Positions 1,255-24,100 are shown, numbered from the stretch's first letter. The stretch: DNA of 41,346 bases from Sphingobacteriales bacterium (GCA_947460245.1 CANHGL010000016.1:1-41346); one strand, 5' to 3'. Numbers and translations: made by a program. Notes: generated by a model not told the origin, from the letters alone.

Positions 1255-1747
1255 ATTTTTTACTCCTCGCCTTTATACTCCATTCAAAATCAAATGCTAC
1301 TAAAAGATTCTGATCTTTGTCAAATCCTTCCACGTGGCTCTTGATGGTTTGTGCAGTTTTGGTATCGATAGAATTTTGGATAGTAGAAGCAATTAGTAAA
1401 CCGTCCTGACAAATAAAGGTAGTAAGGCCAACTGCTCGTTTAATAAATTTTCCGGAGCATGCGGTAACAAACATCGAAACTGATGGGTCCGACTTATGGC
1501 TGTACATTTGAACTAAGGCTCCGCTCGCCATTTCTGCCGCCATACCTAGTACAGCCCAGTAAGTAGTGTTAAACGGATTTTTATTCAGGAATTTATAGGG
1601 TACAGTTACTTTGCACTGTTCGTCGTCTAATGCTGTGATGCGTAAACCTGCGATGCCTGCTAAAGGTAATTGGGTATACATACCTGCTTTAAAAGTAAAA
1701 TAGTTGAGTGCAAGTTTTCTATAGTTTTCTTTATATTCAGTATTCAT
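1253..1747 (-). CDS. DUF4442 / hotdog-fold thioesterase-like protein
   Basis: This 164-residue protein resembles the DUF4442 group of hotdog-fold proteins, relatives of PaaI-type acyl-CoA thioesterases. The segment NKNPFNTTYWAVLGMAAEMASG (about residues 55-76) matches the conserved hotdog helix region, where an N/HxxxxxxG-like pattern lines the acyl-CoA site in the family. No signal peptide or membrane segment is seen, so it is probably cytoplasmic. The substrate cannot be inferred. Its stop codon overlaps the tail of the tRNA-Arg terminator on the other strand. It shares a 130-base upstream region with the divergent TMTC-like gene. A specific catalytic activity has not been shown for most DUF4442 members, so the functional call is by family only. 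Confidence 0.75.
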   Translation of the reverse strand: MNTEYKENYRKLALNYFTFKAGMYTQLPLAGIAGLRITALDDEQCKVTVPYKFLNKNPFNTTYWAVLGMAAEMASGALVQMYSHKSDPSVSMFVTACSGKFIKRAVGLTTFICQDGLLIASTIQNSIDTKTAQTIKSHVEGFDKDQNLLVAFDFEWSIKARSKK

Positions 1748-1851
1748 GCCAGATGTTTATTTGTATTATGCAAGATAAGCAATTCATAATTTTCAGATTG
1801 TATAAATTCGAAGGTAGCTTGTCCTTATAATCACGAAATAAGTAATTAGTG

Positions 1852-1859
1852 TATATTTG
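1852..1859 (+). promoter_or_regulatory. Candidate -7 promoter element
   Basis: TATATTTG fits TAnnTTTG perfectly and lies 19 bases before the ATG at 1878. No clear TTTG is found 19-21 bases upstream, so only one of the two boxes is present. It overlaps an in-frame TTG at 1857, which argues that translation starts at 1878 and not at the TTG. Confidence 0.35.
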
Positions 1860-1877
1860 TTTATTAAACCATTTTTT

Positions 1878-3803
1878 ATGTTTCAAGCAGCTACGGATAT
1901 ACCCAAAAAATGGATTTATGGCTTGCTATTTATATTGTCCCTTGTATTATATGGTAATAGCATTCCCAATAATTATGGTTTGGATGATGAAATAGTAGTT
2001 ACAGGAAATGCTGCTGTACAAAAAGGGGTTTCAGGAATAAAAGAGATTTTAAATCAGCCTTATTATAAAAAGGGTGGTTTGTCCTTTGACTACAGGCCGG
2101 TCGTAATGATATCTTTTGCAATAGAATATCAGCTATTTGGAGCTAATCCTCATGTAAGTCATTTCATAAATATTTTACTGTATGCTTTGTGCCTGGTATT
2201 GCTTTATAATTTATTGACCTATGTTTTTGAAGCAGATAGGATACATAAATTATTACCAATAGGTATGATAATAATTTATGCAGTGCACCCCATACATACG
2301 GAGGTTGTAGACTCTTTAAAGAACAGGGATGAAATACTAAGTATGATATTTGGTTTGCTGTTTTTGATTTTTGGAAAAAAGTTTAATGAAGATGATAGTT
2401 ACTTAAAATGGCGATACCTTATTCTTTCGCTCATATGTCTGACTTTATCCTTATTGTCTAAGTTTATAGGTGTTGTTTTTATTGCTTACTTTATATTAAT
2501 GGCAGTATTTTATGGTTATTTCAAGCGAAATAAGCTTAATTATTTATTTTTATTTACTTGCTTTATAATAACTATAATGGTTATTACTAAAATATTTAGC
2601 GGATTTAAGAGAGCAACAAATATTCTTGAAAATCCTCTTGTGGATGTAAAGAGCTTTTGGGTTATTTTAGGCACCTCTTTTAAAGTATTGATGTATCATT
2701 TCAAGATGTTAGTTTTTCCTTCCATCTTTCGTTTTTATTATGGATATAATACCTTTCCGCTCACTGGCATTGCTGATATTTACGTAGTTTTTTCTATCGT
2801 TCTACATCTTAGTTTGCTTGTCTATGGTGTAATCTTATTCTTCAAAAAGGATATTTTAGGGTTATTTATTCTTTCTTATTTTGCTGCTATATTTTTGTAC
2901 TCGAATCTCTTCATTCCATACACAGGTATTTTTTCTGAAAGAGCTCTTTTTGTAAGTAGTTTTTGGTTTATTACTATGGTTTTAATTGTGTTTTTCAGGA
3001 AGGTATTAAGTAGTACAGCTTTTTCTGGCAGACCCGGGTTTAAACAGCTTATTTCCATTTTGTTCTTTATGCTATGTACGGCTTATTCATTTAAGACTAT
3101 TGGTAGAAATTTTTATTGGAAAGATACGCTTACCTTGTTGGGGCACGATATTAAATATCTTGATCAATCTGTTCTGGCAAATTATATTTACGCCAATAAT
3201 TTGAAAGAGGCGGATAGTTTAAATGTTCAGGATGCGAATCATAATTTGGCAGAGCTCGCTACTGTTTATTATAAAAACACTATCGAATTGATGCCATCTT
3301 ATCCTGAGTTTTATTTAAAACTAGCTTCTACATACAGGTATAATCTAGGGAAATCGGATAGCGCAGCCTTATATTACAAGAAGGCAATTGAAGCAGATTC
3401 TTTATATGCTATAGCATATCTGGAGCTTGGTAAATTGTACTTAGAAAAAAATGATTTCAGAAATAGTACATTGTATCTCAGCAATGCTTATTTAATTAAT
3501 CCTACAGATTCAGTAACGATGTATTACTATGCTCAGAGTGCCGCTTCTTATGGAGATCTTCAGACTTCGTACATAGTTAATAAGCGTTTTGTAGAGCGTT
3601 ACCCAGATCTTCCTGTTGCCTATGTGAACCTAGGTGTGTGTTATTCTAAGATGCTAAAAGACGATAGTGCTGTTATTAACTTTGAAAAGGCAATTCAATT
3701 GGGATATCGTGAGCCGCAGTTACTGCAACAATTGGATATCTATTTTAATAAAAAAGGTTTGGAGCAAAAGTCAAGCTATTACAGGACTTTGTATAAACGG
3801 TAA
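1878..3803 (+). CDS. TMTC-like GT-C glycosyltransferase with C-terminal TPR repeats
   Basis: This 641-residue membrane protein (counted from the ATG at 1878) has about 9-11 hydrophobic segments in its first 410 residues and tetratricopeptide-like repeats from about residue 445 to the end. The first outside loop carries an acidic GLDDE motif (residues 35-39), followed by FDYRP (70-74), HPIHTE (137-142) and NRDE (149-152). These match the pattern of TMTC/DUF1736 GT-C proteins, whose eukaryotic members transfer mannose from a dolichol-phosphate donor to protein Ser/Thr. By inference it transfers a sugar from a polyprenyl-phosphate donor to an acceptor outside the inner membrane. It is the first gene of the glycan locus and ends six bases from the convergent GT-C paralogue at 3810. 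An in-frame TTG at 1857 would add seven residues but overlaps a candidate promoter box. Acceptor unknown. Confidence 0.82.
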   Translation: MFQAATDIPKKWIYGLLFILSLVLYGNSIPNNYGLDDEIVVTGNAAVQKGVSGIKEILNQPYYKKGGLSFDYRPVVMISFAIEYQLFGANPHVSHFINILLYALCLVLLYNLLTYVFEADRIHKLLPIGMIIIYAVHPIHTEVVDSLKNRDEILSMIFGLLFLIFGKKFNEDDSYLKWRYLILSLICLTLSLLSKFIGVVFIAYFILMAVFYGYFKRNKLNYLFLFTCFIITIMVITKIFSGFKRATNILENPLVDVKSFWVILGTSFKVLMYHFKMLVFPSIFRFYYGYNTFPLTGIADIYVVFSIVLHLSLLVYGVILFFKKDILGLFILSYFAAIFLYSNLFIPYTGIFSERALFVSSFWFITMVLIVFFRKVLSSTAFSGRPGFKQLISILFFMLCTAYSFKTIGRNFYWKDTLTLLGHDIKYLDQSVLANYIYANNLKEADSLNVQDANHNLAELATVYYKNTIELMPSYPEFYLKLASTYRYNLGKSDSAALYYKKAIEADSLYAIAYLELGKLYLEKNDFRNSTLYLSNAYLINPTDSVTMYYYAQSAASYGDLQTSYIVNKRFVERYPDLPVAYVNLGVCYSKMLKDDSAVINFEKAIQLGYREPQLLQQLDIYFNKKGLEQKSSYYRTLYKR

Positions 3804-3809
3804 GTCTTT

Positions 3810-5321
3810 TTACCTGCGGTAAGCGTATAACATAAAATTATCGATTCTTTTTTCAAGCACATACCTTGGGTAGTATTTGTGAAGTAGATATTTGTTTTCT
3901 TTATTACTTAGCACAAGGATATATTTTACGCTTCCATTTTCAAAAAAGATATCATAATTTTTACTCGAGTTTAACAGCAGGTTTGATTTACTGGTTAAGC
4001 CGAGGTAAGCATAAATAGATCTGTCTAAATGATATTCATGACCATAGATAATATTCTTATCAGGAAAAAAAATACAGGCCTTTAGATCTGTTGAGTATAA
4101 GCGTTCATTGTTTTGTAATAATGGCAACATTTTCTTTCGAAGTAGTAGGTAATCCTTGTATTCCGTGTGGTATTTGCCTTTAATGGTGTACTCAAGGCTT
4201 TTTATTTTTATGATAAAATCAGTTGCAAACACTAACATTAAATAGATGATAAGGTAATTTATGAGTTGTCTGGGAATTATTTTTTGGCTCACTAGAATGC
4301 TTATCAAAAAAATGCTGATGATGATAAATTCATAACTGTAATTAAGATAGCTACCTGGTCTTAGCATAGACAAGGTAGATAGTAGGAATGCTATTATGCC
4401 TGAAATACAAAGGACTTTAAGGTGTTGTTTTTGGAAGTTAAATAGGGCGGCATATACTAATAAAATGCAAAGGGGAAGTAGCCTATAGGTGTTATATGCA
4501 ATTACATAGAGGTTGTAAGAATTACTGTAATTGGAAATGATTTGTAAGTTGAAGTGGAATAAGCTTGTAATACAATATTTTCCATAAATCAGGAACAATA
4601 AAAAAAACAATAATGCAAAGCTTGTGGCAGATATTAGAAATATTAATATTGTCTTTACTTTCTTAAAGATTAGAATAGTACATAATTGTATGAGTAGGAT
4701 ATAGATTATAACATCTTGTTTTGCTAAAATAGCCAATAGTGCAAATAATAATGAAAGTAGAAATGAAGATCTCTTTTGAGAATAGTATACATGATCAAAA
4801 TGATAGAATATGAACATTGTAAAAAAGCAAATTTTCATACTATCTGGTCTTACAGCATATGCATGACCTGTAATGAGTATCAGAAATAGTGCTGCAATTG
4901 AAATTCTTATATTTTTGTCAGTGGTGTTGAGCCTTATAAATTTATCGAGATATATCAGATTTATAAAAATAAAAGTTAAGCTGATGACCCTTCCAATAAC
5001 ATATATGAAGTGAATATCTTGTACGTAATTCAGGGAAAATAGTTTGCAAATTCCATAAACAAGATATAAGTATAATGGGGTGTATATGACTGCTGAAAAT
5101 GGATACTGTTCCGGATTTAGGTAAAGCGGACATCCGGACATTAACTGTTGTATATAATGGATAAATGAAAATTCAGTGCCATCGAGATCGAGATTGTAGG
5201 AAAAAATGTAGAATATCCGAATAGCAATTGTAAATAGAACTATTACAGCACCCAGAAAAAAAAGGTGGTTTTTCTTTGCAAATCCGGTTATTGATTGATT
5301 AGCTATTTTGATTTTAAACAA
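3810..5321 (-). CDS. GT-C-like polytopic membrane protein, paralogue A of three
   Basis: The 503-residue protein has about 11 hydrophobic segments and a soluble C-terminal part of about 100 residues. It is a clear paralogue of the proteins at 8773-10287 and 10321-11850. Shared signatures are FSYNLDLDGTE (residues 40-50), LYLNP (66-70), IYTPLY (79-84), RPDSMK (158-163), KQD (201-203), an LRPGS...NYSYE motif, and a C-terminal YGHEYHLDR motif. An acidic first loop and this topology are typical of GT-C glycosyltransferases that use polyprenyl-phosphate sugars; the exact family is not recognised. The start codon is TTG: an in-frame stop lies six bases upstream and the first internal Met is past the acidic motif, while the N-terminus aligns without gaps to paralogue B. 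It is tail-to-tail with the TMTC-like gene and divergent from the GT2 gene at 5406 (84 bases between). Confidence 0.8.
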   Translation of the reverse strand: MFKIKIANQSITGFAKKNHLFFLGAVIVLFTIAIRIFYIFSYNLDLDGTEFSFIHYIQQLMSGCPLYLNPEQYPFSAVIYTPLYLYLVYGICKLFSLNYVQDIHFIYVIGRVISLTFIFINLIYLDKFIRLNTTDKNIRISIAALFLILITGHAYAVRPDSMKICFFTMFIFYHFDHVYYSQKRSSFLLSLLFALLAILAKQDVIIYILLIQLCTILIFKKVKTILIFLISATSFALLFFLLFLIYGKYCITSLFHFNLQIISNYSNSYNLYVIAYNTYRLLPLCILLVYAALFNFQKQHLKVLCISGIIAFLLSTLSMLRPGSYLNYSYEFIIISIFLISILVSQKIIPRQLINYLIIYLMLVFATDFIIKIKSLEYTIKGKYHTEYKDYLLLRKKMLPLLQNNERLYSTDLKACIFFPDKNIIYGHEYHLDRSIYAYLGLTSKSNLLLNSSKNYDIFFENGSVKYILVLSNKENKYLLHKYYPRYVLEKRIDNFMLYAYRR

Positions 5322-5405
5322 GTTTTATGCTGTTTTATAAAATTAATATTTTTATTTTATCTATTACAGAAATGTGAGTACTTTTAGTCCTAAACACTGG
5401 GTCAA

Positions 5406-6119
5406 ATGTATTCTAATTCAGAAGTTGAATTATCTGTTGTTGTGTTGTGCTATCGCTCAGAAAGTATTATCGAGCAATTTGTATTGCAGCTTATTAATGA
5501 GATTAAAGAGTTGGATATAACTTTCGAATTGGTGCTCGTTGCAAATTATGATAATGACCCAGCAGATAATACTCTTTTCCTTCTTCGTGAAATTGCAAGC
5601 AGATTTAAGGAGATTGTGGTATTAGCCAGCGAAAAAAAAGGAGGAATGGGTTGGGATATGCGCTCCGGATTATCTGCTGCAAGTGGAAGATATATAGCAG
5701 TTATAGATGGTGATGCGCAGATGCCAGCAAGTGACATACCTGTGGTGTATAGGCTTATTAAAATGGGTGGTTATGATTTAGTGAAGACATATCGTTCAAA
5801 GAGATATGATGGCCTGTTTAGGATTGTATTGTCTTCGGTGTATAATTTCATGTTTCGTTTGTTTTTTCAACCTGATTTTCCTGTTAGAGATGTTAATTCC
5901 AAACCAAAAATATTTACCAAAGAAGCTTATAGTAGATTGAATCTTAAGTCGAATGATTGGTTTACAGACGCTGAGATTATGATTCAGGCATTAAAGCATA
6001 ATTTGAAGATCATTGAAGTCTCTACTGTGTTCTATAAAAATGAGCGCAGAGGCAGTTTTGTCGGTATAAAAACAATATTAGAATTTGTTTTTAATCTTTT
6101 TAAGTATCGTTTTAAATAA
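5406..6119 (+). CDS. GT2 glycosyltransferase, polyprenyl-phosphate sugar synthase-like
   Basis: This 237-residue protein has the GT-A fold pattern of family GT2, close to dolichyl-phosphate mannose synthase-like (DPM1-type) enzymes. The N-terminal strand ELSVVVLCYRSE and the metal/nucleotide-binding DGD at residues 101-103 (followed by AQMP) are present, as is an acceptor-side DVNSKPK...W...DAEI region near residues 162-190 that is typical of DPM-type enzymes. No membrane anchor is evident, so it is likely peripheral on the cytoplasmic face. By inference it loads a sugar from a nucleotide donor onto a polyprenyl phosphate, giving donors for the neighbouring GT-C proteins. Its last eight bases overlap the end of the convergent GT2 gene. 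The sugar cannot be told. Confidence 0.85.
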   Translation: MYSNSEVELSVVVLCYRSESIIEQFVLQLINEIKELDITFELVLVANYDNDPADNTLFLLREIASRFKEIVVLASEKKGGMGWDMRSGLSAASGRYIAVIDGDAQMPASDIPVVYRLIKMGGYDLVKTYRSKRYDGLFRIVLSSVYNFMFRLFFQPDFPVRDVNSKPKIFTKEAYSRLNLKSNDWFTDAEIMIQALKHNLKIIEVSTVFYKNERRGSFVGIKTILEFVFNLFKYRFK

Positions 6120-6963
6120 GCTGAGGTTGTAATGCCTTAATTATTTTATCAATGGTTTTATTGGTAAATTTCAACGATAGGAATAATAAAATTTGCAGAA
6201 TGATGTTGCTTATAATGTATGCTATAAGCGTTGTGGCAATTTTTTTACTGGCTAATAAAACGAATAAAGCGGGTATCAATGCAAGAATAAAATTCATCAG
6301 AATGATATTTTGACCATAGAATGTTTCAAGTGCCAGGCGGATTAATTTAAGATAGTTATACCCAGATTCATCGTCTTTTACGTCATTTAGCGTGAACTGC
6401 ATACCACTAACCTTTTTAGTGTTGTTAAAGATGATAATGTCCGTGTTCCAGAAGATATATTTTTTATTTAGAATCTTATCTCTGAAGGATTTTGGTATAA
6501 TTCGGAAGGTAGAATTTCTGTGAAAACTGTAGAGACGGTGAAGCAGCAGTTTAAATAAGTTGCTGAATATTTTACGGGTACCGGAGGTATACATTTCGTC
6601 TTTGTCATAAAACCAATAGTAGACATCAAACGAACGGTACTCTGAATTTGAGCAAATCAATGGTATGTATTTAACCATATCTTCATCAATACTTAAGATA
6701 TAATCTCCTTTTGCGAGATGGTAGCCGCAAAGAGTGGCAAAACTCTGACCATAATTTTTATCTAATCGATGAATTCTTATCTCTTTATACTGCCGTTGTA
6801 ATTTATTTAACTCGTCTATTTCTTCTATATGCTCATCATTATCTATGATTAATAAAATTTCGAAAGAATTATATTTTGCGTACAGGGTGTCAATTATTGC
6901 ATTGGCATGCAATAAAATATGCTTTGTTGAGCGATATATAGGGATAACAATGGATAATTCCAT
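6112..6963 (-). CDS. GT2 glycosyltransferase with C-terminal membrane segments
   Basis: This 283-residue GT2-family protein starts with MELSIVIPIYRST and carries DED at residues 93-95 as the metal-binding motif (DxD class). A TSGTRKIFSN segment follows near residue 128. The C-terminal part, from about residue 215, holds two hydrophobic segments, as in ArnC/GtrB-type polyprenyl-phosphate glycosyltransferases that are anchored in the inner membrane. The likely reaction is transfer of a sugar to polyprenyl phosphate, though direct transfer to a glycan is possible. It overlaps the GT2 gene at 5406 by eight bases at the 3' end. It is divergent from the GNAT gene, with 150 bases between their starts. 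It is a different subtype from the neighbouring GT2, so the two probably handle different sugars or acceptors. Confidence 0.83.
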   Translation of the reverse strand: MELSIVIPIYRSTKHILLHANAIIDTLYAKYNSFEILLIIDNDEHIEEIDELNKLQRQYKEIRIHRLDKNYGQSFATLCGYHLAKGDYILSIDEDMVKYIPLICSNSEYRSFDVYYWFYDKDEMYTSGTRKIFSNLFKLLLHRLYSFHRNSTFRIIPKSFRDKILNKKYIFWNTDIIIFNNTKKVSGMQFTLNDVKDDESGYNYLKLIRLALETFYGQNIILMNFILALIPALFVLLASKKIATTLIAYIISNIILQILLFLSLKFTNKTIDKIIKALQPQLI

Positions 6964-7053
6964 AAAGGCAATAACCTGAAAGTGTAAAGTAATAAAAAAT
7001 AGAGATTATTTTATCAGTTTTAGTTGAAACTATCTGTTATTCTCCAATTAGAC

Positions 7054-7061
7054 TATATTTG
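7054..7061 (+). promoter_or_regulatory. Candidate -7 promoter element of the GNAT gene
   Basis: TATATTTG fits TAnnTTTG and lies 52 bases before the ATG at 7114. The -33 box is weak (TCTG at 7033-7036, only 17 bases away). A start here would make the in-frame TTG at 7024 untranscribed and supports the ATG at 7114. Confidence 0.35.
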
Positions 7062-7113
7062 TAAACGGTATTTGACTTTGGAGTTGCAGACAAATTTATA
7101 CCTTGTATTATTT

Positions 7114-7863
7114 ATGATAATTTTTTCAAAAGGAGAGAGTGATATTTTAGGTGCTAAATTCGGAAGAATTGCTTTAGATAGTTCGTTTAATGATTTCCAT
7201 TTATTAAAAAATGAAATTATCTCTTTGGATTATGACTTCTTGCGAGTAAGGATTGATAACCCCGGTAGTTTTATTCAAGAGGGTTTGAACACAGTGGGAA
7301 CGTCAGTGCATCTTCTGGAGATACTGAGAGCTTATACCACAAAGTCTTTACAGAGTTATGATTTAAAAGTAATTTATGGGGATTATAATTATCAAAAAGT
7401 AAGCCATGACACATTGGGTTTATTTTTAGAGCTTGTAGAAGAAACCTATGAAGATATTCCGTTTGGAACTTATACTCCAAAAGTTGTATTGGATAGATTT
7501 AGTAAAAGTAATCAGTTGCAAAGTTTAGTTGATTATTTCAGGCAGAATTATGATGGAAGCAACTCTGTTAGTGAGGCTTTTTTAATTTATAATAAAGAGA
7601 ATGAGGTGGTAGGTTGTCTGACCATAGATTCTTCTGCAGATGAAACGTATACCTATTATGTAGGAGTAAGAAAAGCCTATAGAAATAATGATATACTTTT
7701 TAAGACCATTAACTTTATTCACCATTATGCTCAACTAAGTGGAAAGTTGTACGCTAAGGGCGCAGCAAGACTACATAATATTTTTAGTCAGAGAGCATTT
7801 GAGAAAAGTGGGATGAATTGCTCAGGATATACCTGGGTTTATCTGATAGGAGCTAAGGCTTAG
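7114..7863 (+). CDS. GNAT-family acyltransferase, WecD-like layout
   Basis: Counted from the ATG at 7114 this is a 249-residue protein. Its N-terminal half (ESDILGAKFGRI... then DFLRVRID) resembles the N-terminal half of WecD-like amino-sugar acetyltransferases, in which a DS-x-FG-x-K motif opens the protein. The C-terminal half shows a GNAT-like pattern: a strand (YTYYVGV), a helix (FKTINFIHHYAQ), and AARLHNIFSQRAFEKSGM, the usual end of the acetyl-CoA-binding domain. By inference it acylates an amino sugar, perhaps a nucleotide-activated precursor of the glycan made by this locus. The open frame extends to a TTG at 7024, but a candidate promoter lies inside that stretch and the extension has no family-like sequence. 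The stop overlaps the end of the convergent PhyH gene by four bases. Confidence 0.72.
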   Translation: MIIFSKGESDILGAKFGRIALDSSFNDFHLLKNEIISLDYDFLRVRIDNPGSFIQEGLNTVGTSVHLLEILRAYTTKSLQSYDLKVIYGDYNYQKVSHDTLGLFLELVEETYEDIPFGTYTPKVVLDRFSKSNQLQSLVDYFRQNYDGSNSVSEAFLIYNKENEVVGCLTIDSSADETYTYYVGVRKAYRNNDILFKTINFIHHYAQLSGKLYAKGAARLHNIFSQRAFEKSGMNCSGYTWVYLIGAKA

Positions 7864-8663
7864 ACAAAGGGTTGTGTATAGGTTCTATCCTTGTCGCCAC
7901 CATAAAACTCTGAAAAATCAGAAGGTGTTTGCGCTCTAAAGCCCAGAAGTTGCTTTGTTTCCTCAGGTATATTTTCCTTGTTAATGTGCTCCATGAATCT
8001 TGGTATATCTACACGCTGCTTTACCCAGGGTTTGCAATATGCAAGGATGAGACAGTTGCGCCATTCACTAGAATTATTCGTTCCGGCTGCATGCCAGATT
8101 CTTGGATTGAAATACAGTATACTTCCTTTAGGGGCAGTAAAGCGAACTGCATTTTTATAGAAATATTCTTCTGTTGGGGGTGTTTCCTGATTATGAGATG
8201 CAGGTAGTACCCATGTGGCTCCATTCTCTTCTGTAAAGTCGTCAAGTAAAATTATTGAAGCGAGAATGTAATCATATTCTGGAATAATTCTCGGCGTATC
8301 TACATGTATTCTTACCGCTTTAGTTACGCCATTATTTGGGGGAATACAGTTATTGCTATATAGGTAAATAGTAAACCATTTCTCCAATATAGATTCTACC
8401 AAGGAGAGCATTTCCTTATTTTTTAGAATTTCTAAAATCTCAGGGTACTTATCTGCATAGTAAGGAGCACAAAGCAGAAATCCATAATCCTTATAATCTG
8501 GATTTTTTACCAGATTTTTCTCTTCTTCAATAAGCTCCAACATGATTTTACGCATCAATTCCAGATACTCAACAGGCAATGTGCTTTTTAAGGCTACAAA
8601 TCCATTTTTTTTGTAAAATTCAAGAGACTTTTCGCTTTCTGTATGTGAGAATAGAGGAAACAT
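7860..8663 (-). CDS. Phytanoyl-CoA dioxygenase (PhyH) family, Fe(II)/2-oxoglutarate oxygenase
   Basis: The 267-residue protein has the full facial triad of a non-haem Fe(II)/2-oxoglutarate oxygenase: HVD (H120, D122) and the distal His in IWHAAG (H191), followed by R202 in WRNCLIL for binding 2-oxoglutarate. The segment ENGATWVLPASHNQ between them is typical of the PhyH family. Members hydroxylate lipids, amino acids or small metabolites. It is probably cytoplasmic. It lies 109 bases downstream of the GT-C paralogue B on the same strand and may be the last gene of a C-B-PhyH unit, which suggests hydroxylation of a glycan precursor or lipid, although the substrate is unknown. Its 3' end overlaps the GNAT gene by four bases. 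No terminator lies between the two. Confidence 0.85.
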   Translation of the reverse strand: MFPLFSHTESEKSLEFYKKNGFVALKSTLPVEYLELMRKIMLELIEEEKNLVKNPDYKDYGFLLCAPYYADKYPEILEILKNKEMLSLVESILEKWFTIYLYSNNCIPPNNGVTKAVRIHVDTPRIIPEYDYILASIILLDDFTEENGATWVLPASHNQETPPTEEYFYKNAVRFTAPKGSILYFNPRIWHAAGTNNSSEWRNCLILAYCKPWVKQRVDIPRFMEHINKENIPEETKQLLGFRAQTPSDFSEFYGGDKDRTYTQPFV

Positions 8664-8772
8664 GAAAACAGCGTAATTATTTAAGTCTTAAAAGTACTTA
8701 TTTTTCTTAAAAGTTTTGCCTTTAAAGAATTCTTTAGATAGCAAATGGATTTTGTTTGGAGTAAAGTATATA

Positions 8773-10287
8773 CTAAATAGGCGTATTGGTAGTGTTAAAC
8801 TTATAAAGTAATAGATTTTCGGTCTTTTTAAAAAAAGTATAATCTGTATAGAATTTTCCAATTTGTTTTTTTGCGATACTGTCATCTTCAATAACGATAT
8901 ACTTTACCCTTCCTGCCTTAAAATAATTATCGTATGCTTTAATGGAGTTATTATTATAAGTCTTTAGATCTACAGGTATTTGAAGGTATAGTTCTGCATA
9001 CCTGTCAAAATGCAGATCATAACCATAGACTTTATTTAGCTGATTATTAAAGATAATATATTTCGGATTGCTGAAAAATACCGTATCCTGTTTGATAATA
9101 GCACTCAACACCTTACTTGTTTTTATATTTTTTTGATAATCTATTTTTTCTGATTTAATAATACTCTTATTGAATACCGTTGGGTTTTGAAAGTGAAAAC
9201 AGAAGATCGGTAGGTAGAACACGAGAATCAATCGATAATACCTTGATTTAATACTTTTTCTGTCTTTTAAAAAGATACCTGTGTTTATGAGCATTAGAAT
9301 AATAGATTCATAGGTGTAATTTAGGTTGGATCCCGCTCGCAAGAGTGTTAATTCACTGACTATAAAAAATATAAATCCAATGATGGAAAGTAGTTTAGTT
9401 GCTTTATCAGAGGAGCGGATATTGTAATAGCAGATAATTAAAAAGGGTAGCATTTTTAAACTGTTGATACCTATAAAAAACAGAGAAAAGCCAGGAGATG
9501 ATGAGTATTGAAGGTTGTATAAAAAAATATTATTGAGTATCAGTCCATTGGTAGAGTAGTATCCTGCGAGAAATATAATTACTAATACAAGTATAAATAG
9601 CATAAGTGCAATCAGATAGCTTCTTTGTCTTAGTATCAGGTAAGATATTAAGTAATATATAATTATGTAGATAGCTAAGTCGTGTTTAAAGAATACTCCG
9701 ATACTTGAACAAACCGTTCCAATAATAAGATGCTTGTACTTCTTTGACTTAAACTCATAGGATATAGTGAAGTATAAGAATAATATAAAGAAGCTTACCT
9801 TAAAACTATCGGGTCTGAAGGTGAAAAAATGTTGTGGTAGCAACAAAATTCCAATCAAAAGCAGCAGTATCTTATTTTTATTTTCACTTATAAGCAGTTT
9901 TATTATTCTTATAAGAATGTATCCATTTATTATACCAAGGATAAAAGAAATTAATCTGCCTACTATTAATGCCTCATGTATGTTTTCCTGAGGGTTTATT
10001 TGCAGAATAGATAATAGGTATTTTAGGGTATAGGAGTGTAAGGGTGGGTATATAATATCAAAAAAAGGATAGGCGTCAGGATTTAAGTATAAGTGACCGT
10101 TTTTATCCAGTAGCTGGATGTAATTCAAGAAAGCAAATTCAATCCCGCCAATATCTATAGAGTAAGAAAAAATATTCAATACTACGATACTTAAAAAATA
10201 CAGGAATAATAAAATGAATATCCATTCGCTAAAATGCATGTTTCGGACAGGAGATAAATAGCGTTTTATACTATTGTTCATGTTCAT
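8773..10287 (-). CDS. GT-C-like polytopic membrane protein, paralogue B of three
   Basis: This 504-residue protein has about 11 hydrophobic segments followed by a soluble C-terminal portion. It aligns with paralogue A (3810-5321) without gaps over at least the first 203 residues: FSYSIDIGGIE (40-50), LYLNP (66-70), IIYPPLH (78-84), RPDSFK (158-163) and KHD (201-203) sit at the same positions. It also carries LRAGSNLNYTYE and the C-terminal YGYDLHFDR motif. In this copy the second acidic residue of the first-loop motif is Gly (DIGGIE instead of DLDGTE), so D45 and E50 are the constant acidic positions. A GT-C glycosyltransferase role is inferred from topology and neighbours. It starts 33 bases after the stop of paralogue C on the same strand and precedes the PhyH gene by 109 bases, so C, B and PhyH may be one transcript. 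Confidence 0.8.
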   Translation of the reverse strand: MNMNNSIKRYLSPVRNMHFSEWIFILLFLYFLSIVVLNIFSYSIDIGGIEFAFLNYIQLLDKNGHLYLNPDAYPFFDIIYPPLHSYTLKYLLSILQINPQENIHEALIVGRLISFILGIINGYILIRIIKLLISENKNKILLLLIGILLLPQHFFTFRPDSFKVSFFILFLYFTISYEFKSKKYKHLIIGTVCSSIGVFFKHDLAIYIIIYYLISYLILRQRSYLIALMLFILVLVIIFLAGYYSTNGLILNNIFLYNLQYSSSPGFSLFFIGINSLKMLPFLIICYYNIRSSDKATKLLSIIGFIFFIVSELTLLRAGSNLNYTYESIILMLINTGIFLKDRKSIKSRYYRLILVFYLPIFCFHFQNPTVFNKSIIKSEKIDYQKNIKTSKVLSAIIKQDTVFFSNPKYIIFNNQLNKVYGYDLHFDRYAELYLQIPVDLKTYNNNSIKAYDNYFKAGRVKYIVIEDDSIAKKQIGKFYTDYTFFKKTENLLLYKFNTTNTPI

Positions 10288-10320
10288 TTTTTAATACTGA
10301 TAAATTTTGCATTATGTGCT

Positions 10321-11850
10321 TTAGGGTTGGTATTGGTAAACAAGGAAATTATTCAATACTGCTGATGCTTTATAGTTTGGGTAGAATTTACTCATTTGAT
10401 TTAATGAATTAGGGTCTTTATTTATTACAATGAACTTTACAATACCATTCTTAAAGCACTGGTCGTAATTTTGTGTCATATCATTTACAATAAATTTACT
10501 TTCCATTGTTGGATGATAATTTATTTTACTCATCTTCAATTTTATCTCCATATTTAAATAGATAGAGATAAATCGTTCATAATGCCAGTCGTAACCATAA
10601 ATGAGATGTCCATCAGGATAGAATATAGTATACTTCATATTTGGCAAGAATACTACGTTGTTTTTTATAATTCTTTTTATTGCTTTGAACGAAGCAATGT
10701 TTTCATAGTATTCTCTTTTTTGTGTAACCTCATTATTTCTATCGAAGCTATATGCATATAGGTGAAGTTTTCCTAAAAAGAGGATTAGGAAAAGGGTGTA
10801 AACAGCTAGTTTCTTGTCCAGTCTCACATTTATATGTTCTTTTTGATACAAAAAGATATTTATTAATAATAGTATGCAAGATTCGTATGCATAGTTAATA
10901 TTAGATCCTACTCTTAGCATGCTTAGGTTGCTAAGTATAAAATACACTGTACTTATTATGGCAATAGTATAAGTTATTCTTTCTTTAGATTTTAAATTAA
11001 TATAGGTGAAGTAGACTAAGGGTATGAGTCTGATGATATTAATGACAATAACAATAAAACTAAGGTGTACCCCTGTGTTGTACTGCAAGTTAAAGACTAA
11101 TAAATTTTGGAGAATATTAATGTCACTGAATAAGTATGTCAGCCAGACTCCTAGTCCCAGTAAGATGATTAATAAAATTGGCGCCAAAAGATACTTGTAT
11201 CTTTTGGTTAGAAGAAGTTGTATTCCATAGTAAGCAAATCCATATATAATTAAATCTTGCTTAAATAGGATGCCTAATAATAAAAAAATAAACCCCCACG
11301 CGAAGTGTTTATTAGAATGGGTCAGGGTATATTTTATGTTGAATAGTAAAAATAAGAGGTAGCAGGTTACTTTAAAGCTGTCTGGTCTGCAGGTAAAAAA
11401 ATGCTTAGGCAGTAGTAATAGAAATAATAGAAAAAATAAAAAACTTGGTTTAAAATCAGGAACAAGTAGTTCTAAAATTTTAACTAAAATATAGAAGTCT
11501 AGAAAAATCAATAGGAATGATACTGTTCTGGTAAGTATGTAGAGTTGATGTGTGTCATTTAAAACATCTATAGATAGTAATGTGGAACATCCCGCCATTA
11601 TATAATGGTATAGTGGAGTGTATACAGATAATAAAAATGGAAACTCAGAAGGGTTGCTATAAAGTGGGTGGCTGGTTTTAAGAAGTTGTATAAAATGGAT
11701 AGATACATACTCTAGTCCCTCGAGGTCAGTGCTGTAAGAGAAAATAAGTAATACTCTGATGATTAACAGGTAGGCTATTACTATCAGAAATCCTATTTCT
11801 ACAATGGAGAAAGGTATAAAACGCTTGAATTTTTCACTTAGCTTGAGCAT
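10321..11850 (-). CDS. GT-C-like polytopic membrane protein, paralogue C of three
   Basis: The 509-residue protein has the same arrangement as paralogues A and B, shifted by three or four residues: FSYSTDLEGLE (37-47), LYSNP (63-67), VYTPLYH (76-82), RPDSFK (155-160), KQD (197-199), LRVGSNINYAYE and a C-terminal YGYDWHYER motif. About 11 hydrophobic segments are followed by a soluble tail of about 110 residues ending in a VKFIVI strand that matches VKYIVI in B and VKYILV in A. The protein is probably an inner-membrane glycosyltransferase of GT-C type acting outside the membrane, by topology and context only. It starts at an ATG at 11850 and is divergent from the holin-family gene. Position and spacing suggest it is the first gene of the leftward C-B-PhyH unit. 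Confidence 0.8.
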   Translation of the reverse strand: MLKLSEKFKRFIPFSIVEIGFLIVIAYLLIIRVLLIFSYSTDLEGLEYVSIHFIQLLKTSHPLYSNPSEFPFLLSVYTPLYHYIMAGCSTLLSIDVLNDTHQLYILTRTVSFLLIFLDFYILVKILELLVPDFKPSFLFFLLFLLLLPKHFFTCRPDSFKVTCYLLFLLFNIKYTLTHSNKHFAWGFIFLLLGILFKQDLIIYGFAYYGIQLLLTKRYKYLLAPILLIILLGLGVWLTYLFSDINILQNLLVFNLQYNTGVHLSFIVIVINIIRLIPLVYFTYINLKSKERITYTIAIISTVYFILSNLSMLRVGSNINYAYESCILLLINIFLYQKEHINVRLDKKLAVYTLFLILFLGKLHLYAYSFDRNNEVTQKREYYENIASFKAIKRIIKNNVVFLPNMKYTIFYPDGHLIYGYDWHYERFISIYLNMEIKLKMSKINYHPTMESKFIVNDMTQNYDQCFKNGIVKFIVINKDPNSLNQMSKFYPNYKASAVLNNFLVYQYQP

Positions 11851-12460: not shown

Positions 12461-15061
12461 ATGAATCCTAATAATTATACCATCAAATCACAAGAGGCTA
12501 TTGCTCATGCGCAGCAGTTAGCATTCGATTATAAGCATGCTTCCTTAGATACGTTTCACCTGCTAAAGGGGATATTAGATACAGACCAGGACGTAACTCC
12601 ATTTGTATTTAAGAAACTTCAAGCGGATACTTTTAAAATTGAAACTGCATTAGCTGCACTCTTAAAAAATCAGCCAACAGTTTCCGGTGATAGTATGAAA
12701 TATCCTTCACCAGCTTTATCTCAGGTGCTGTTAAAAACGAATTCTTATTTAAAAGAATTTGGAGATGATTATGTCTCGATAGAGCATTTTTTATTGGCCT
12801 TGCTCAGTGTCAACGATGATACCTCAAAATTATTGAAGCAAAATAATATTTCAGAGGATAAATTAAAACAAGCGATTAAAGAACTTAGAAAAGGACAAAC
12901 CGTGAATAATCCAAGCGCAGATACAACATATAATTCATTAGATAAGTATGCTAAAAATCTTAATCAGTTAGCAGCGTCTAATAAACTCGATCCAGTTATA
13001 GGTAGAGACGAAGAAATCAGAAGAGTACTACATATACTTTCGAGAAGAACAAAGAATAACCCTATTCTCGTTGGTGAACCTGGAGTTGGTAAAACAGCTA
13101 TCGCGGAGGGTATAGCCCATCGGATTATTTCAGGAGATATACCTGAAAATCTGAAATCTAAGGTTATCTATTCTCTGGATATGGGCGCATTGATTGCAGG
13201 TGCTAAATATAAAGGCGAGTTCGAAGAACGATTGAAGGCTGTTATTAAAGAAGTTACCTCTAGTGAAGGTCAGATAATTTTATTCATAGATGAGATACAC
13301 ACCTTGGTGGGTGCAGGTGGCGGTGGTGATGGCGCCATGGATGCAGCTAATATTCTAAAACCGGCACTGGCACGCGGTGAGTTGCGTTCTATAGGAGCAA
13401 CTACTTTGGCAGAGTATCAGAAATACTTTGAAAAAGACAAGGCGCTGGAAAGAAGATTCCAAAAGGTAATGGTGAATGAGCCAAGTCCTGAAGATGCCGT
13501 ATCTATTTTACGCGGACTGAAAGAACGCTATGAAACCCATCATAAAGTTATTATCAAAGATGAGGCTATACTTGCCGCAGTAGAGTTGTCAGGCAGATAT
13601 ATTACAAATCGCTTCTTGCCGGATAAGGCAATAGATTTAATAGATGAAGCAGCAGCAAAGCTTAGACTGGAGATGGACTCTGTTCCAGAAGAAGTGGATG
13701 AGTTAGATAGAAGAATTAGAAAATTTGAAATTGAGCGTGAGGCACTTAAAAGAGAGAATGACACTACGAAAGTAGATGAACTTTCCAAAACTATTGCGGA
13801 TTTGAACGATAAAAGAATGGAGTTGCGCGCGAAATGGGAAGGAGAAAAAACTATACTGGATAAAGTTCAGTCTTCAAAACTGAATATAGAAAGTTTTAAG
13901 CTTGAAGCGGAGCAGGCGGAACGAAATGGTGATTATGGAAAAGTAGCAGAGTTACGTTATGGAAAGATAAAAGCAGAAGAAGAAAATTTAGCAAAGCTGG
14001 AAAATGAGCTTAAGGCGATGAAAGAAGGCAGCCGTTTGATGAAAGAAGAGGTTGCGGCTGAAGATATTGCAGAAGTAGTAGCTAAATGGACAGGTATTCC
14101 TGTTAATAAGATGCTGGAAAAGGAAAGAGAAAAACTACTTCAGTTAGAAGCGCACCTTCATCAGCGTGTAATTGGTCAGGATGAAGCAATTATAGCTGTG
14201 TCGGATGCTATCAGAAGAAGCAGGGCCGGTTTGCAGGATCCTAAAAAGCCCTTGGGTTCTTTTCTGTTTATCGGTACTACCGGCGTCGGAAAAACAGAGT
14301 TGGCTAAAGCATTGGCAGAATTATTATTTGATGACGAAAAGGCAATGGTTCGTATAGATATGAGTGAGTATATGGAGAAACACAGTGTTTCCCGTTTGAT
14401 AGGTTCTCCTCCGGGTTATGTAGGATATGAAGAGGGGGGGCAGCTCACAGAGGCAATCCGTAATCATCCTTATTCCGTAGTTTTATTGGATGAGATAGAG
14501 AAAGCGCATCCGGATGTATTTAATATTTTGTTACAAGTTTTAGAAGATGGCAGACTAACAGATAATAAAGGGAGAGTAGTGGATTTTAGAAATACCATTA
14601 TTATAATGACTTCAAATATTGGCTCTCATTTGATACAGCAAAATTTTGAAAATGTAAAAACAGAAAGCGAGATTTTTTCTGCAACTGAAACTTCTAAAAT
14701 TCAAATTTTTGATGCACTCAAAAGGGTATTAAAGCCTGAGTTTTTCAATCGAATTGACGAAGTAATTATGTTTAAACCTTTATTGAGGGATGATATCACT
14801 GCTATTGTGAGAATTCAACTGGTTAATCTACAGCAACAATTAGAAGTTATGGATATACAGCTGGAATATACAGAAGAGTTAGTGGCTTATTTTGCAAGAG
14901 AAGGTTATGATCCACAGTATGGCGCCAGACCCCTAAAAAGACTGATTAATAAGTTGCTGATTAATGAATTATCCAAAATGATATTAGCAGATAAAATTGA
15001 TAAACATAAGAAAGTTGTTGCGGATAGCTTTAATGATGTGATAGTCTTTAGGAATGAATAA
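12461..15061 (+). CDS. clpB: ATP-dependent chaperone ClpB (disaggregase)
   Basis: The 866-residue protein is a full-length ClpB, the hexameric AAA+ unfoldase that rescues aggregated proteins together with DnaK in the cytoplasm. It contains the Clp N-domain (about residues 1-145), the first ATPase domain with Walker A GEPGVGKT (205-212) and a DEIHTL Walker B, the coiled-coil middle domain (about 400-540) that separates ClpB from ClpA/ClpC, and the second ATPase domain with GTTGVGKT (605-612) and an [11 protein letters not shown] Walker B. The end carries the usual ARPLKRLI sensor-2 region. No ClpP-docking IGF/IGL loop is evident, as expected. It is not closely coupled to other genes; pyrR starts 102 bases downstream. 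No CIRCE inverted repeat is seen upstream, so heat regulation cannot be read from the sequence. Confidence 0.98.
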
Positions 15062-21189: not shown

Positions 21190-24100
21190 GATTCCTGTTT
21201 TGGCAGCTGAATGTAAAAGATGGTGTATTTATTCTCTTCGGTATCAAACCATATCTTCCCATTCATTCGTTCTATAATGTTTTTACTAATGGCAAGGCCT
21301 AAACCTGTGCCGGATGTTTTGGTGGTAAAATTAGGCTCAAAAATATGAGTTCTTTTTTCGTTTGCAATACCCACACCATTATCTTTTATTGAAATAATAA
21401 AGGAGTTGTCTTTTTCTTCTATAGAAATATCTACCCGGCCTTGTGTATATTCAGGAATAGCCTGAATTGCATTTTTTATTAGGTTAATAAATACCCGCAT
21501 GAGCTGCTCTTTATCTCCAAAGACATAACTAGTTTCTTCAGGATAAATTACATAAACACGAGTATCCTCTATTTCCCTGAATAAATCTACGGCGGATTCA
21601 AGAATGGGTGCTATAGCAATTTTTTCAAAGTTACCCTGTGGCATTTTAGCAAAATCAGAAAATGCAGAGGCAATATTGGAAAGGTTATCAATTTGTTCAA
21701 TTAAGCGGTGCGTTATCTTCTCAGTGAGTTCCAGTGCATCTGGTGATTTGTCATTTAAAGCTCTCTGTAAGTGTTGTATGCTTAATTTCATCGGTGTAAG
21801 CGGGTTCTTAATTTCATGCGCCACTTGCTTAGCCATCTCTCTCCAGGCTCCTTCGCGTTCAGATTTGGCTAATAGGTCGGCACTCTTTTCTAACTCGGCT
21901 AACATTAAGTTGTATTGCTTTACGAGCAGTCCGATTTCATCGTCATTTTTCCAGCTTATGAAAGAATTAGATTTCCCAAGTTGTACGCCTCGAATATTAT
22001 CTGAAATAATTTTTAATGAGTTTGTAATAGAGCGTGATAAGATTACAGCCAGAATGGCTGCTGCGATAAGAAAAACAACATAGACATTTACTAGCGCCAC
22101 TAAGAAGTAGGAAATATCTTCTTGAAAACTTTTTTGCTTACCGTAATAAGGGAAATTGAAGTACCCCAATATTTTTCCATTACTTCTAAAAGGCTGGTAG
22201 GCGCTTAAATAGGTTAGTTTTCCTATATGCTCATCATGAATGTATTTAGATTTTTCTCTGATGATAAGGTTTAGGTAGGCGTCAGGATCTATTTTGTTAG
22301 AAATAAGATTACGTTTGAAAATTTCAGGTTGAGAGGTTTGAACCAATTCACCTCTTGTGTTGTAAATATTAATATCCAAAGCATGTATGCTAGATAGAAT
22401 TTTCACTTTTTTTTGAACCACCTTTTCAAAGGTAGCTGAACCATAAGTGGGGTATTCTTCAATGTAATATTGGCTAAAATCCTTCATAACCGAATTTACT
22501 TTCTTAAGGAGTCGGCTGTTTTGGTAGATATTATACTGGTATTGAAAATATACCATGGTTACTATTCCAATGATGGCAAGTGAAAATAGTACGAGGGCAA
22601 TCATAGAATTCTGTATCTGTTTCTGCAGTGTATTTCCTTGAATTAAATTCCGAATAGAATTCTCTCCCCAAAATCTATCTGAGAATCCGAGGATATCCAT
22701 TAAAATAAAAAACAATAAAAAGAACACTACCATATAGGAGAATACAGAAAGTGTATTTAAGGCAGGTTGATTTTTTTCAGATAATACAACCTGTTTCTCC
22801 TGGTTGGAGTAAATAATATGATTGTATCCGTTGCTTTTTAAATAACTAAATTCTGAGTTTTTCTTATAGGGGAAATTGAAGCTTACCTGATATTCATAAT
22901 CTCCTCTTTGTTTCACTAAATATCTCTTATTATATATAGCGTAAGAAAAATTATCAAATTCTTCATCATAGTAGTTTTTTTGCTTTAACAGTAATTCCGG
23001 ATAGGCGCTGTAAGAGCTGAAAATCTTAGGCACAAACTCTATGCATAAGTAGCCCAGTAAATTAGAGTTTTCATATAAAGGGAAGAATCCAAGATATTTT
23101 TCTCCATTCTCTTTTAGCGACAAGTAGTAATAATTTTTAGAAATCTTTTTTGCTTTGCTGTAAAATCGGATATTATTTAGTTTGTAGAATTCCTTCTGAG
23201 AGGAGCCCATAAGTGGTTTCCCCTCTTTATTAAAACAATAATAGATGATACTGTATCGTTTTAAAAGTGTTTTGAAATATTTGGCACTAAGTCGATTTTC
23301 AACATTTACACTAGATAGGTATGGGTTCTTAAAATAAGATATAATAAAATTATCTGTATTGATTTGTTTTTCACTGCCTGTTATATTGTATTCTTCTCCG
23401 GCATCACGTTCGGATACTAATTCCTCCATCCTGTATTTTCGTTTCTCTAAATCTTTTTGTGTGGTATTGTATATAATTACCACGGATGAGATAAAAGAAA
23501 TTAAAGAGAGCAATATCAGATTAGATAGGAATCGGTATTTTTTATTTTCTTTGAATAAGGTTTTCTCATAGTGAAAGTATAAAAAGAAGGTGCTTATCCA
23601 TAGCGTTAGGAAGAGGGTGTAAATTGCTCCATTGAAAATACCTGAGAAGTATCCTATACCTCCTCCAAGAATTATAAATAGTAAAACATAAAAAAAGTAA
23701 TTATCATCAAGGGTTTCTTCAAATATCCATTTAGTTATAAATATCAGAGATGAAAAGCATAAACCGAAAATAATTAGACTGACAATAGTATACTTATCGA
23801 GTGTGTTAATCAGGTAGAAATTGAAGCTGATTACAGAGTTTTGTATAACACTCTGGTAGGTATAAATTAATAGAAAGAAAACAAAAACCGGAAGTGCAAA
23901 TAGCCAGTTTCTGTGTTTGATAGGAATAGCCTTGATAGGCAGGTATCTTATCAGCGAAAATATCCACGTTAGCAAAAATGTTCTGATTAATAAGGCACCA
24001 AGTGTCGCACCAAGTGATGTAGAGGCATAGAGATTGGAAGAGAAGAGTAGGGATGCTTTGGTTATAGAGAAGAGTTGTTGGCCGTTAAATAAGATGTCAG

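Follow-up and report, generated by a model that had tools for sequence, protein, structure and literature searches.

Three GT-C-like paralogues of a Chitinophagales locus: a genus-level branch of PMT_2-like proteins with a probable role in polyprenyl-phosphate-sugar-dependent glycosylation

We describe here three membrane protein genes, A, B and C, on contig CANHGL010000016.1 of assembly GCA_947460245.1, which comes from an uncultured Chitinophagales bacterium. The whole stretch analysed, 41,346 nucleotides, is referred to as the window, and labels such as G005 and L056 are our own handles for genomes and loci. The proteins are full-length paralogues at about 30-36% identity, and they are very probably inner-membrane glycosyltransferases of the GT-C fold that work from a polyprenyl-phosphate sugar and form a genus-level branch of the PMT_2-like enzymes. 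The locus also has a gene of glycosyltransferase family 2 (GT2) starting at position 5406, here called GT2-5406, and a gene for a PhyH-type dioxygenase, and both are important for the argument that follows.

Paralogy, motifs and predicted fold

The coordinates and lengths (503, 504 and 509 aa) of the initial annotation are correct, and translation puts the open frames on the minus strand; at all three loci the plus strand has many stops. The identities by BLASTP are 30% for A and B (E 2e-47), 30% for A and C (E 4e-57) and 36% for B and C (E 9e-85), and as the similarity stands at Z 29-37 over shuffles that preserve local composition, the likeness is not explained by hydrophobic composition. 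A and B had been said to align without a gap over at least 203 residues, and in a MAFFT alignment their longest gap-free run is 236 columns. The proposed ordered set of seven motifs is also borne out by a pattern search, which finds each of them once in A, B and C and in the same order, apart from an extra KQD in the tail of B; the third has to be written with [IV]Y as C has VYTPLY.

The residues that do not vary in an alignment of 20 family members are, in C numbering, E47, R155, D157, K197, D199, N254, Q256, R313, N319, Y320, E323, H423 and R426. It had been proposed that the acidic residues of the first loop are invariant and of functional significance, and this holds for E47, a plausible catalytic base, whereas D42 is kept in 19 of the 20, with N in the remaining one. 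A small correction to the motif set is that some of its letters vary in the wider family: H423 and R426 of the tail are fully kept, but LYxNP has lost its N or P in several members.

AlphaFold2 models made with the 20 sequences have a pLDDT (predicted local distance difference test) of 84.9 and a pTM (predicted template modelling score) of 0.87 for C, and 87.6 and 0.89 respectively for A. In VIA-align the best match of the A model is ArnT (5f15, Z 23.6), and the C model matches Pmt4 at Z 22.9 and ArnT at Z 21.8. Both match ArnT, Pmt4, AglB and PglB at Z 18-24, and the alignment with ArnT takes in the tail, spanning 428-435 residues (Z 21.6-23.6). For each model the 50 highest-ranking VIA-align matches consist of GT-C enzymes or of PIGU, a related subunit of glycosylphosphatidylinositol transamidase, and complexes that contain oligosaccharyltransferase (OST), and the top Foldseek matches are of the same class; the types returned by the two programs are Pmt4, ArnT, AglB, STT3, PglB, ALG12 and arabinosyltransferases. 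A library of viral structures gave one nameless match at E 9e-6 and otherwise weak ones, and a search bearing on plasmid origin found no near match. Comparison of predicted structures with ArnT, PglB and PMT, as had been proposed, gave confident A and C models of the suggested GT-C class, and a fold other than GT-C, which had been named as refuting the proposal, did not appear. For B the fold follows from its 36% identity to C over its length, and we regard the GT-C fold of A, B and C as settled as far as prediction can settle it.

A different reading is that A, B and C act on a lipid-linked polysaccharide as polymerases or ligases of the Wzy or WaaL type, and not as single-sugar transferases. 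There are several glycosyltransferase genes in the locus, and relatives of GT2-5406 are found in polysaccharide-type loci, both of which would fit. However the nearest structures are of the ArnT/PMT/OST class, and inspection of the neighbouring genes in the window by eye, with no dedicated search, revealed none that is obviously Wzx, Wzz or Wza. We set this reading aside because of the fold, and consider it scarcely probable at all.

The fold also accommodates non-catalytic proteins, and A, B and C could in principle resemble PIGU and bind acceptors or regulate other transferases encoded there. PIGU does fit the A and C models, at Z 14-15.5, and sugar transfer could fall to the TMTC-like protein or to further membrane proteins of the locus. 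However the first-loop E, R-x-D, K and N-Y-x2-E are invariant in the 20 members, and some loss would be expected if catalysis had been given up, which makes a non-catalytic role highly improbable.

Relation to PMT_2-like proteins

The family had been presented as unrecognised, and it is true that no curated Pfam or NCBIfam model covers A, B and C, which have no match among the NCBIfam models and nothing or only chance matches in PHROGs. Searches of PDB sequences with family profiles gave nothing meaningful and no ArnT chain, even with distant relatives added, and no paper on this GT-C branch came up in our literature searches. However there are intermediates that grade into PMT_2-like proteins. 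Five of the 20 family members touch PMT_2 with E values of 0.01 or less (best 1.1e-4), below the curated cut-off, and the intermediate relatives L056, L066, L077 and L080 pass that cut-off, the bridging protein L056 with 33.8 bits where 26.1 are needed. In the proposed Pfam check A, B and C themselves are unmatched, and it is their relatives that reach the family.

The motifs point the same way. L056 has DLRGVE, RPDV, KQT and GSAINYFNE, while L065 and L077 have EVEW(N/M)E, R(M/N)DA, KQQ and GGY-x-N, and in these last two the motifs grade into those of general bacterial PMT_2-like proteins. The core motifs common to the intermediates are D/E-x2-G-x-E, RPD, KQ and GS-x2-NY-x2-E. In hhalign the family aligned with a PMT_2-like set at a probability of 99.4 over 295 columns, whereas a control with an unrelated membrane family gave 0.2. 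Only the tail H-x2-R is confined to the branch, being present in 20 of 20 members and in 0 of 12 proteins outside it. Given the graded intermediates, the contacts with PMT_2 and the sharing of most motifs with relatives, the set is an uncurated, diverged offshoot, at the level of a genus, of a widespread class, the bacterial PMT_2-like GT-C proteins, and does not represent a new type of enzyme.

Distribution and clades

The genome from which the window comes (2.21 Mb in 85 contigs) has A, B and C as its only family copies. With a profile made from the three proteins the family was found in five of the seven congeners beyond it, with 3 to 5 copies each, counts which come from drafts and may be affected by contig breaks, and there was no match outside the genus among the 61 genomes searched. 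A profile of 20 rows also reaches beyond the genus, with more distant relatives in further families belonging to the order (E 1e-27 to 1e-39) and weaker matches in other parts of the phylum. A scan of named genomes gave no relatives with the three-row alignment and congeners with the 20 rows, and the named records matched by the 20-row profile are metagenome-assembled genomes labelled Chitinophagales or Bacteroidota. The GC content of the GT-C set, about 0.30-0.34, is below that of most of the window, but the stretches 1501-3000 and 22501-24000 are equally low and we make no claim of transfer on this basis.

In a tree for which eight distant relatives served as outgroup, clade A is found in 6 genomes, B in 5, C in 5 and D in 4, each with bootstrap 99-100. 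One long-branched copy from G001 is outside clades A to D, and the window's genome is without a clade D copy. As these well-supported clades recur across genomes, the duplications behind them most likely took place before the sampled species diverged, and the initial proposal of diverged copies that have been kept is well matched by such old and separate clades. The division into clades A to D suggests different acceptor positions or donors.

It is possible, though we think it doubtful, that the transferases have overlapping specificity and are retained because they provide variation or dosage, as in changing surface structures. This would oppose specialisation of the paralogues only, and leave the enzyme class untouched. 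The 3 to 5 copies among congeners, the missing D copy in the window's genome, the stop codons in G003 and the fast divergence within clades, with clade A orthologues 38-48% identical to one another, are all in keeping with it. However each of the clades A, B and C is present in 5-6 of 6 genomes with bootstrap 99-100%, and separate lasting roles fit this better than a recent amplification would.

The G003 copies are broken (L026:8-1968, G003:C129), with a single TAA in one frame and two or three stops in one fragment, at a contig end; this may be decay or assembly error.

Co-occurrence with GT2-5406 and PhyH

Of the genomes of the genus, 6 have the GT-C set together with GT2-5406 and PhyH and 2 lack all three, which thus behave as one unit within the genus, in a small sample of eight genomes of one genus with kinship not corrected for. 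G005 has the same flanks and retains the TMTC-like protein, the second GT2 and the GNAT-like gene, with A, B, C, GT2-5406 and PhyH missing. The GT-C set, GT2-5406 and PhyH are also missing from G007, though that genome is 85% complete. In G072, which belongs to a different family of the order, the gene directly beside a GT-C relative is a GT2 with 53% identity to GT2-5406. GT2 genes are also near the GT-C relatives L098, L101-L104 and L106, which is only supportive as GT2 proximity is common for GT-C enzymes.

Proposed function

The initial annotation had invoked a polyprenyl-phosphate-sugar context, and this is upheld by the two GT2 genes within the locus and by GT2 genes beside GT-C relatives elsewhere. 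It is from the GT2 neighbours and the GT2/GT-C adjacency in G072 that we infer a polyprenyl-phosphate sugar as donor. GT2-5406, and perhaps also the second GT2, would load polyprenyl phosphate with sugar in the cytoplasm, a putative flippase would turn the product outward, and A, B and C would then pass sugars to acceptors in the periplasm, probably a glycan or glycoprotein.

In PimE, ArnT, ALG6 and PglB juxtamembrane helix 1 carries the catalytic aspartate at its apex, and in GT-C structures basic residues hold the donor phosphate (PMC12041525). In DPY19 the catalytic residue is a glutamate, and a luminal dome over the site has counterparts in other GT-C enzymes (PMC10154233). In our proteins the base that activates the acceptor hydroxyl may be the first-loop acidic residue, E47 in C and E50 in A. 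Being invariant and placed at the start of the first-loop helix in the models, E47 of helix 47-58 and E50 of helix 50-61, these are the best candidates and plausible ones, with the near-invariant D42 (D45 in A) as an alternative base or a partner. Conserved basic residues would grip the donor phosphate.

Some observations weigh against these assignments. A, B and C have no Pfam match, PMT_2 (PF13231) included; a missing Pfam domain is not unusual, as some characterised GT-C members are without any (PMC8035078). The Pfam scan recognised no flippase in the locus, and two GtrA-type candidates are elsewhere in the genome. In other families of the order GT2-5406 is found beside quite different membrane proteins, and thus is not bound to this GT-C branch. 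Lastly PIGU shows, by analogy, that a GT-C fold can be retained with a different role.

A more far-reaching proposal would be that we have a new GT-C family at CAZy level, with its tail Y-G-x-D/E-x-H-x-D/E-R in acceptor recognition, four paralogues of ancient origin that together make a single multi-branched glycan or glycoprotein in this uncultured genus, and a PhyH-modified lipid-linked sugar or acceptor. We consider this rather improbable.

Genes of the locus

The genes are listed in Table 1.

Table 1. Features of the GT-C locus and its flanks, in window coordinates (TPR, tetratricopeptide repeat)
Feature	Coordinates	Strand	Length (aa)	Remarks
TMTC-like protein	1857..3803	plus	648	PMT_2-like membrane part and C-terminal TPRs (Pfam)
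GT-C paralogue A	3810..5321	minus	503	TTG start; clade A
GT2, polyprenyl-phosphate-sugar-synthase-like (GT2-5406)	5406..6119	plus	237	DGD; Pfam Glycos_transf_2 1.5e-16
Second GT2, hydrophobic C-terminal part	6112..6963	minus	283	DED; Pfam 4.7e-9
GNAT-like acetyltransferase	7024..7863	plus	279	Pfam 0.00098, slightly below cut-off
PhyH-type 2-oxoglutarate/Fe(II) dioxygenase	7860..8663	minus	267	HxD and distal H; Pfam 2.4e-19
GT-C paralogue B	8773..10287	minus	504	Clade B
GT-C paralogue C	10321..11850	minus	509	Clade C
Small membrane protein PF04020	11921..12349	plus		Pfam 2.9e-24; conserved flank
ClpB	12461-15061			Behind PF04020 protein

Gene order is largely preserved in the congeners, where further GT-C copies and other membrane proteins are inserted and the TMTC-like protein adjoins A. 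Most congeners, and G005, also have the GNAT-like gene at this place, and the second GT2 was not found in the G006 locus. GT2-5406 has weak matches to the PgfS, ArnC and AglJ models of NCBIfam.

In the case of the GT2-5406 orthologues of other Chitinophagales families, genes resembling those for glucose-1-phosphate cytidylyltransferase and CDP-glucose 4,6-dehydratase (CDP, cytidine diphosphate) are found nearby. A CDP-6-deoxysugar donor, suggested by rfbF/rfbG beside these orthologues, was rejected for the window's genome (G000), which has no such cytidylyltransferase, with no match above 45 bits where the cut-off is 300. In L130:1979-7386, and similarly in L131, L132, L136 and L137, the orthologues are beside several membrane proteins of 560-630 aa; three of these proteins scanned from L130 had no Pfam match, and some read DEG near the N-terminus.

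Congener loci have another membrane protein of 528-535 aa (L023:11359-12966, L029:10145-11731, L032:8495-10090), with 40-49% mutual identity and NDEWEHQSxAVNYAKG near the N-terminus, which is absent from the window; the L023 copy has no Pfam match. These proteins (alignment A3) were considered as close relatives of A, B and C and rejected, the profile comparison giving a probability of 5.9. Predicted secreted giants of 1559-1959 aa (L023:474-6008, L032:1-4677, L120:11756-17635), which start like YNDGxIRLRVWxxKVWxxANC, adjoin the locus or ClpB in three genomes and are also absent from the window. A second PhyH, about 38% identical, is near a GNAT-like gene in G001 and G002 (L108:8818-14509, L109:1-2516), and in G001 also beside two TMTC-like proteins, which suggests a recurring association of PhyH, GNAT and TMTC.

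Comparison with known systems

With regard to families already described, A, B and C share their core motifs with L056, one of the intermediate relatives that reach the PMT_2-like GT-C proteins (PF13231), and the private tail H-x2-R and the missing PMT_2 match of A, B and C set the branch apart. The closest full-length fold, tail included, is that of the undecaprenyl-phosphate aminoarabinose (Ara4N) transferase ArnT (GT83), but identity to A and C is only 8-10% and there is no sign of Ara4N as donor or lipid A as acceptor. The flanking TMTC-like protein shares the PMT_2-like plus TPR architecture of the TMTC/PMT clan (PMC7801869), whereas A, B and C are without TPRs.

The presence of a GT2 beside a GT-C gene in one locus is as in the multi-component transmembrane glycosylation systems (GT-A, flippase and GT-C; PMC8035078), but here there are three to five GT-C paralogues, a PhyH and a GNAT, with no recognised flippase adjacent. 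The GT136 system of Citrobacter (PMC11127046) follows the same three-component logic, and its GT-C enzyme founded a new CAZy family; in contrast neither a MATE flippase nor a polyprenyl phosphoribose synthase was recognised beside the A, B and C set.

This branch leaves the understanding of the GT-C fold and its mechanism unchanged. A large number of bacterial GT-C enzymes escape the family models and have yet to be characterised, and a clean set such as this one, in a small, syntenic and variable locus with four GT-C clades, one GT2 and one PhyH that are present or absent together, could serve for the study of acceptor specificity within one branch.

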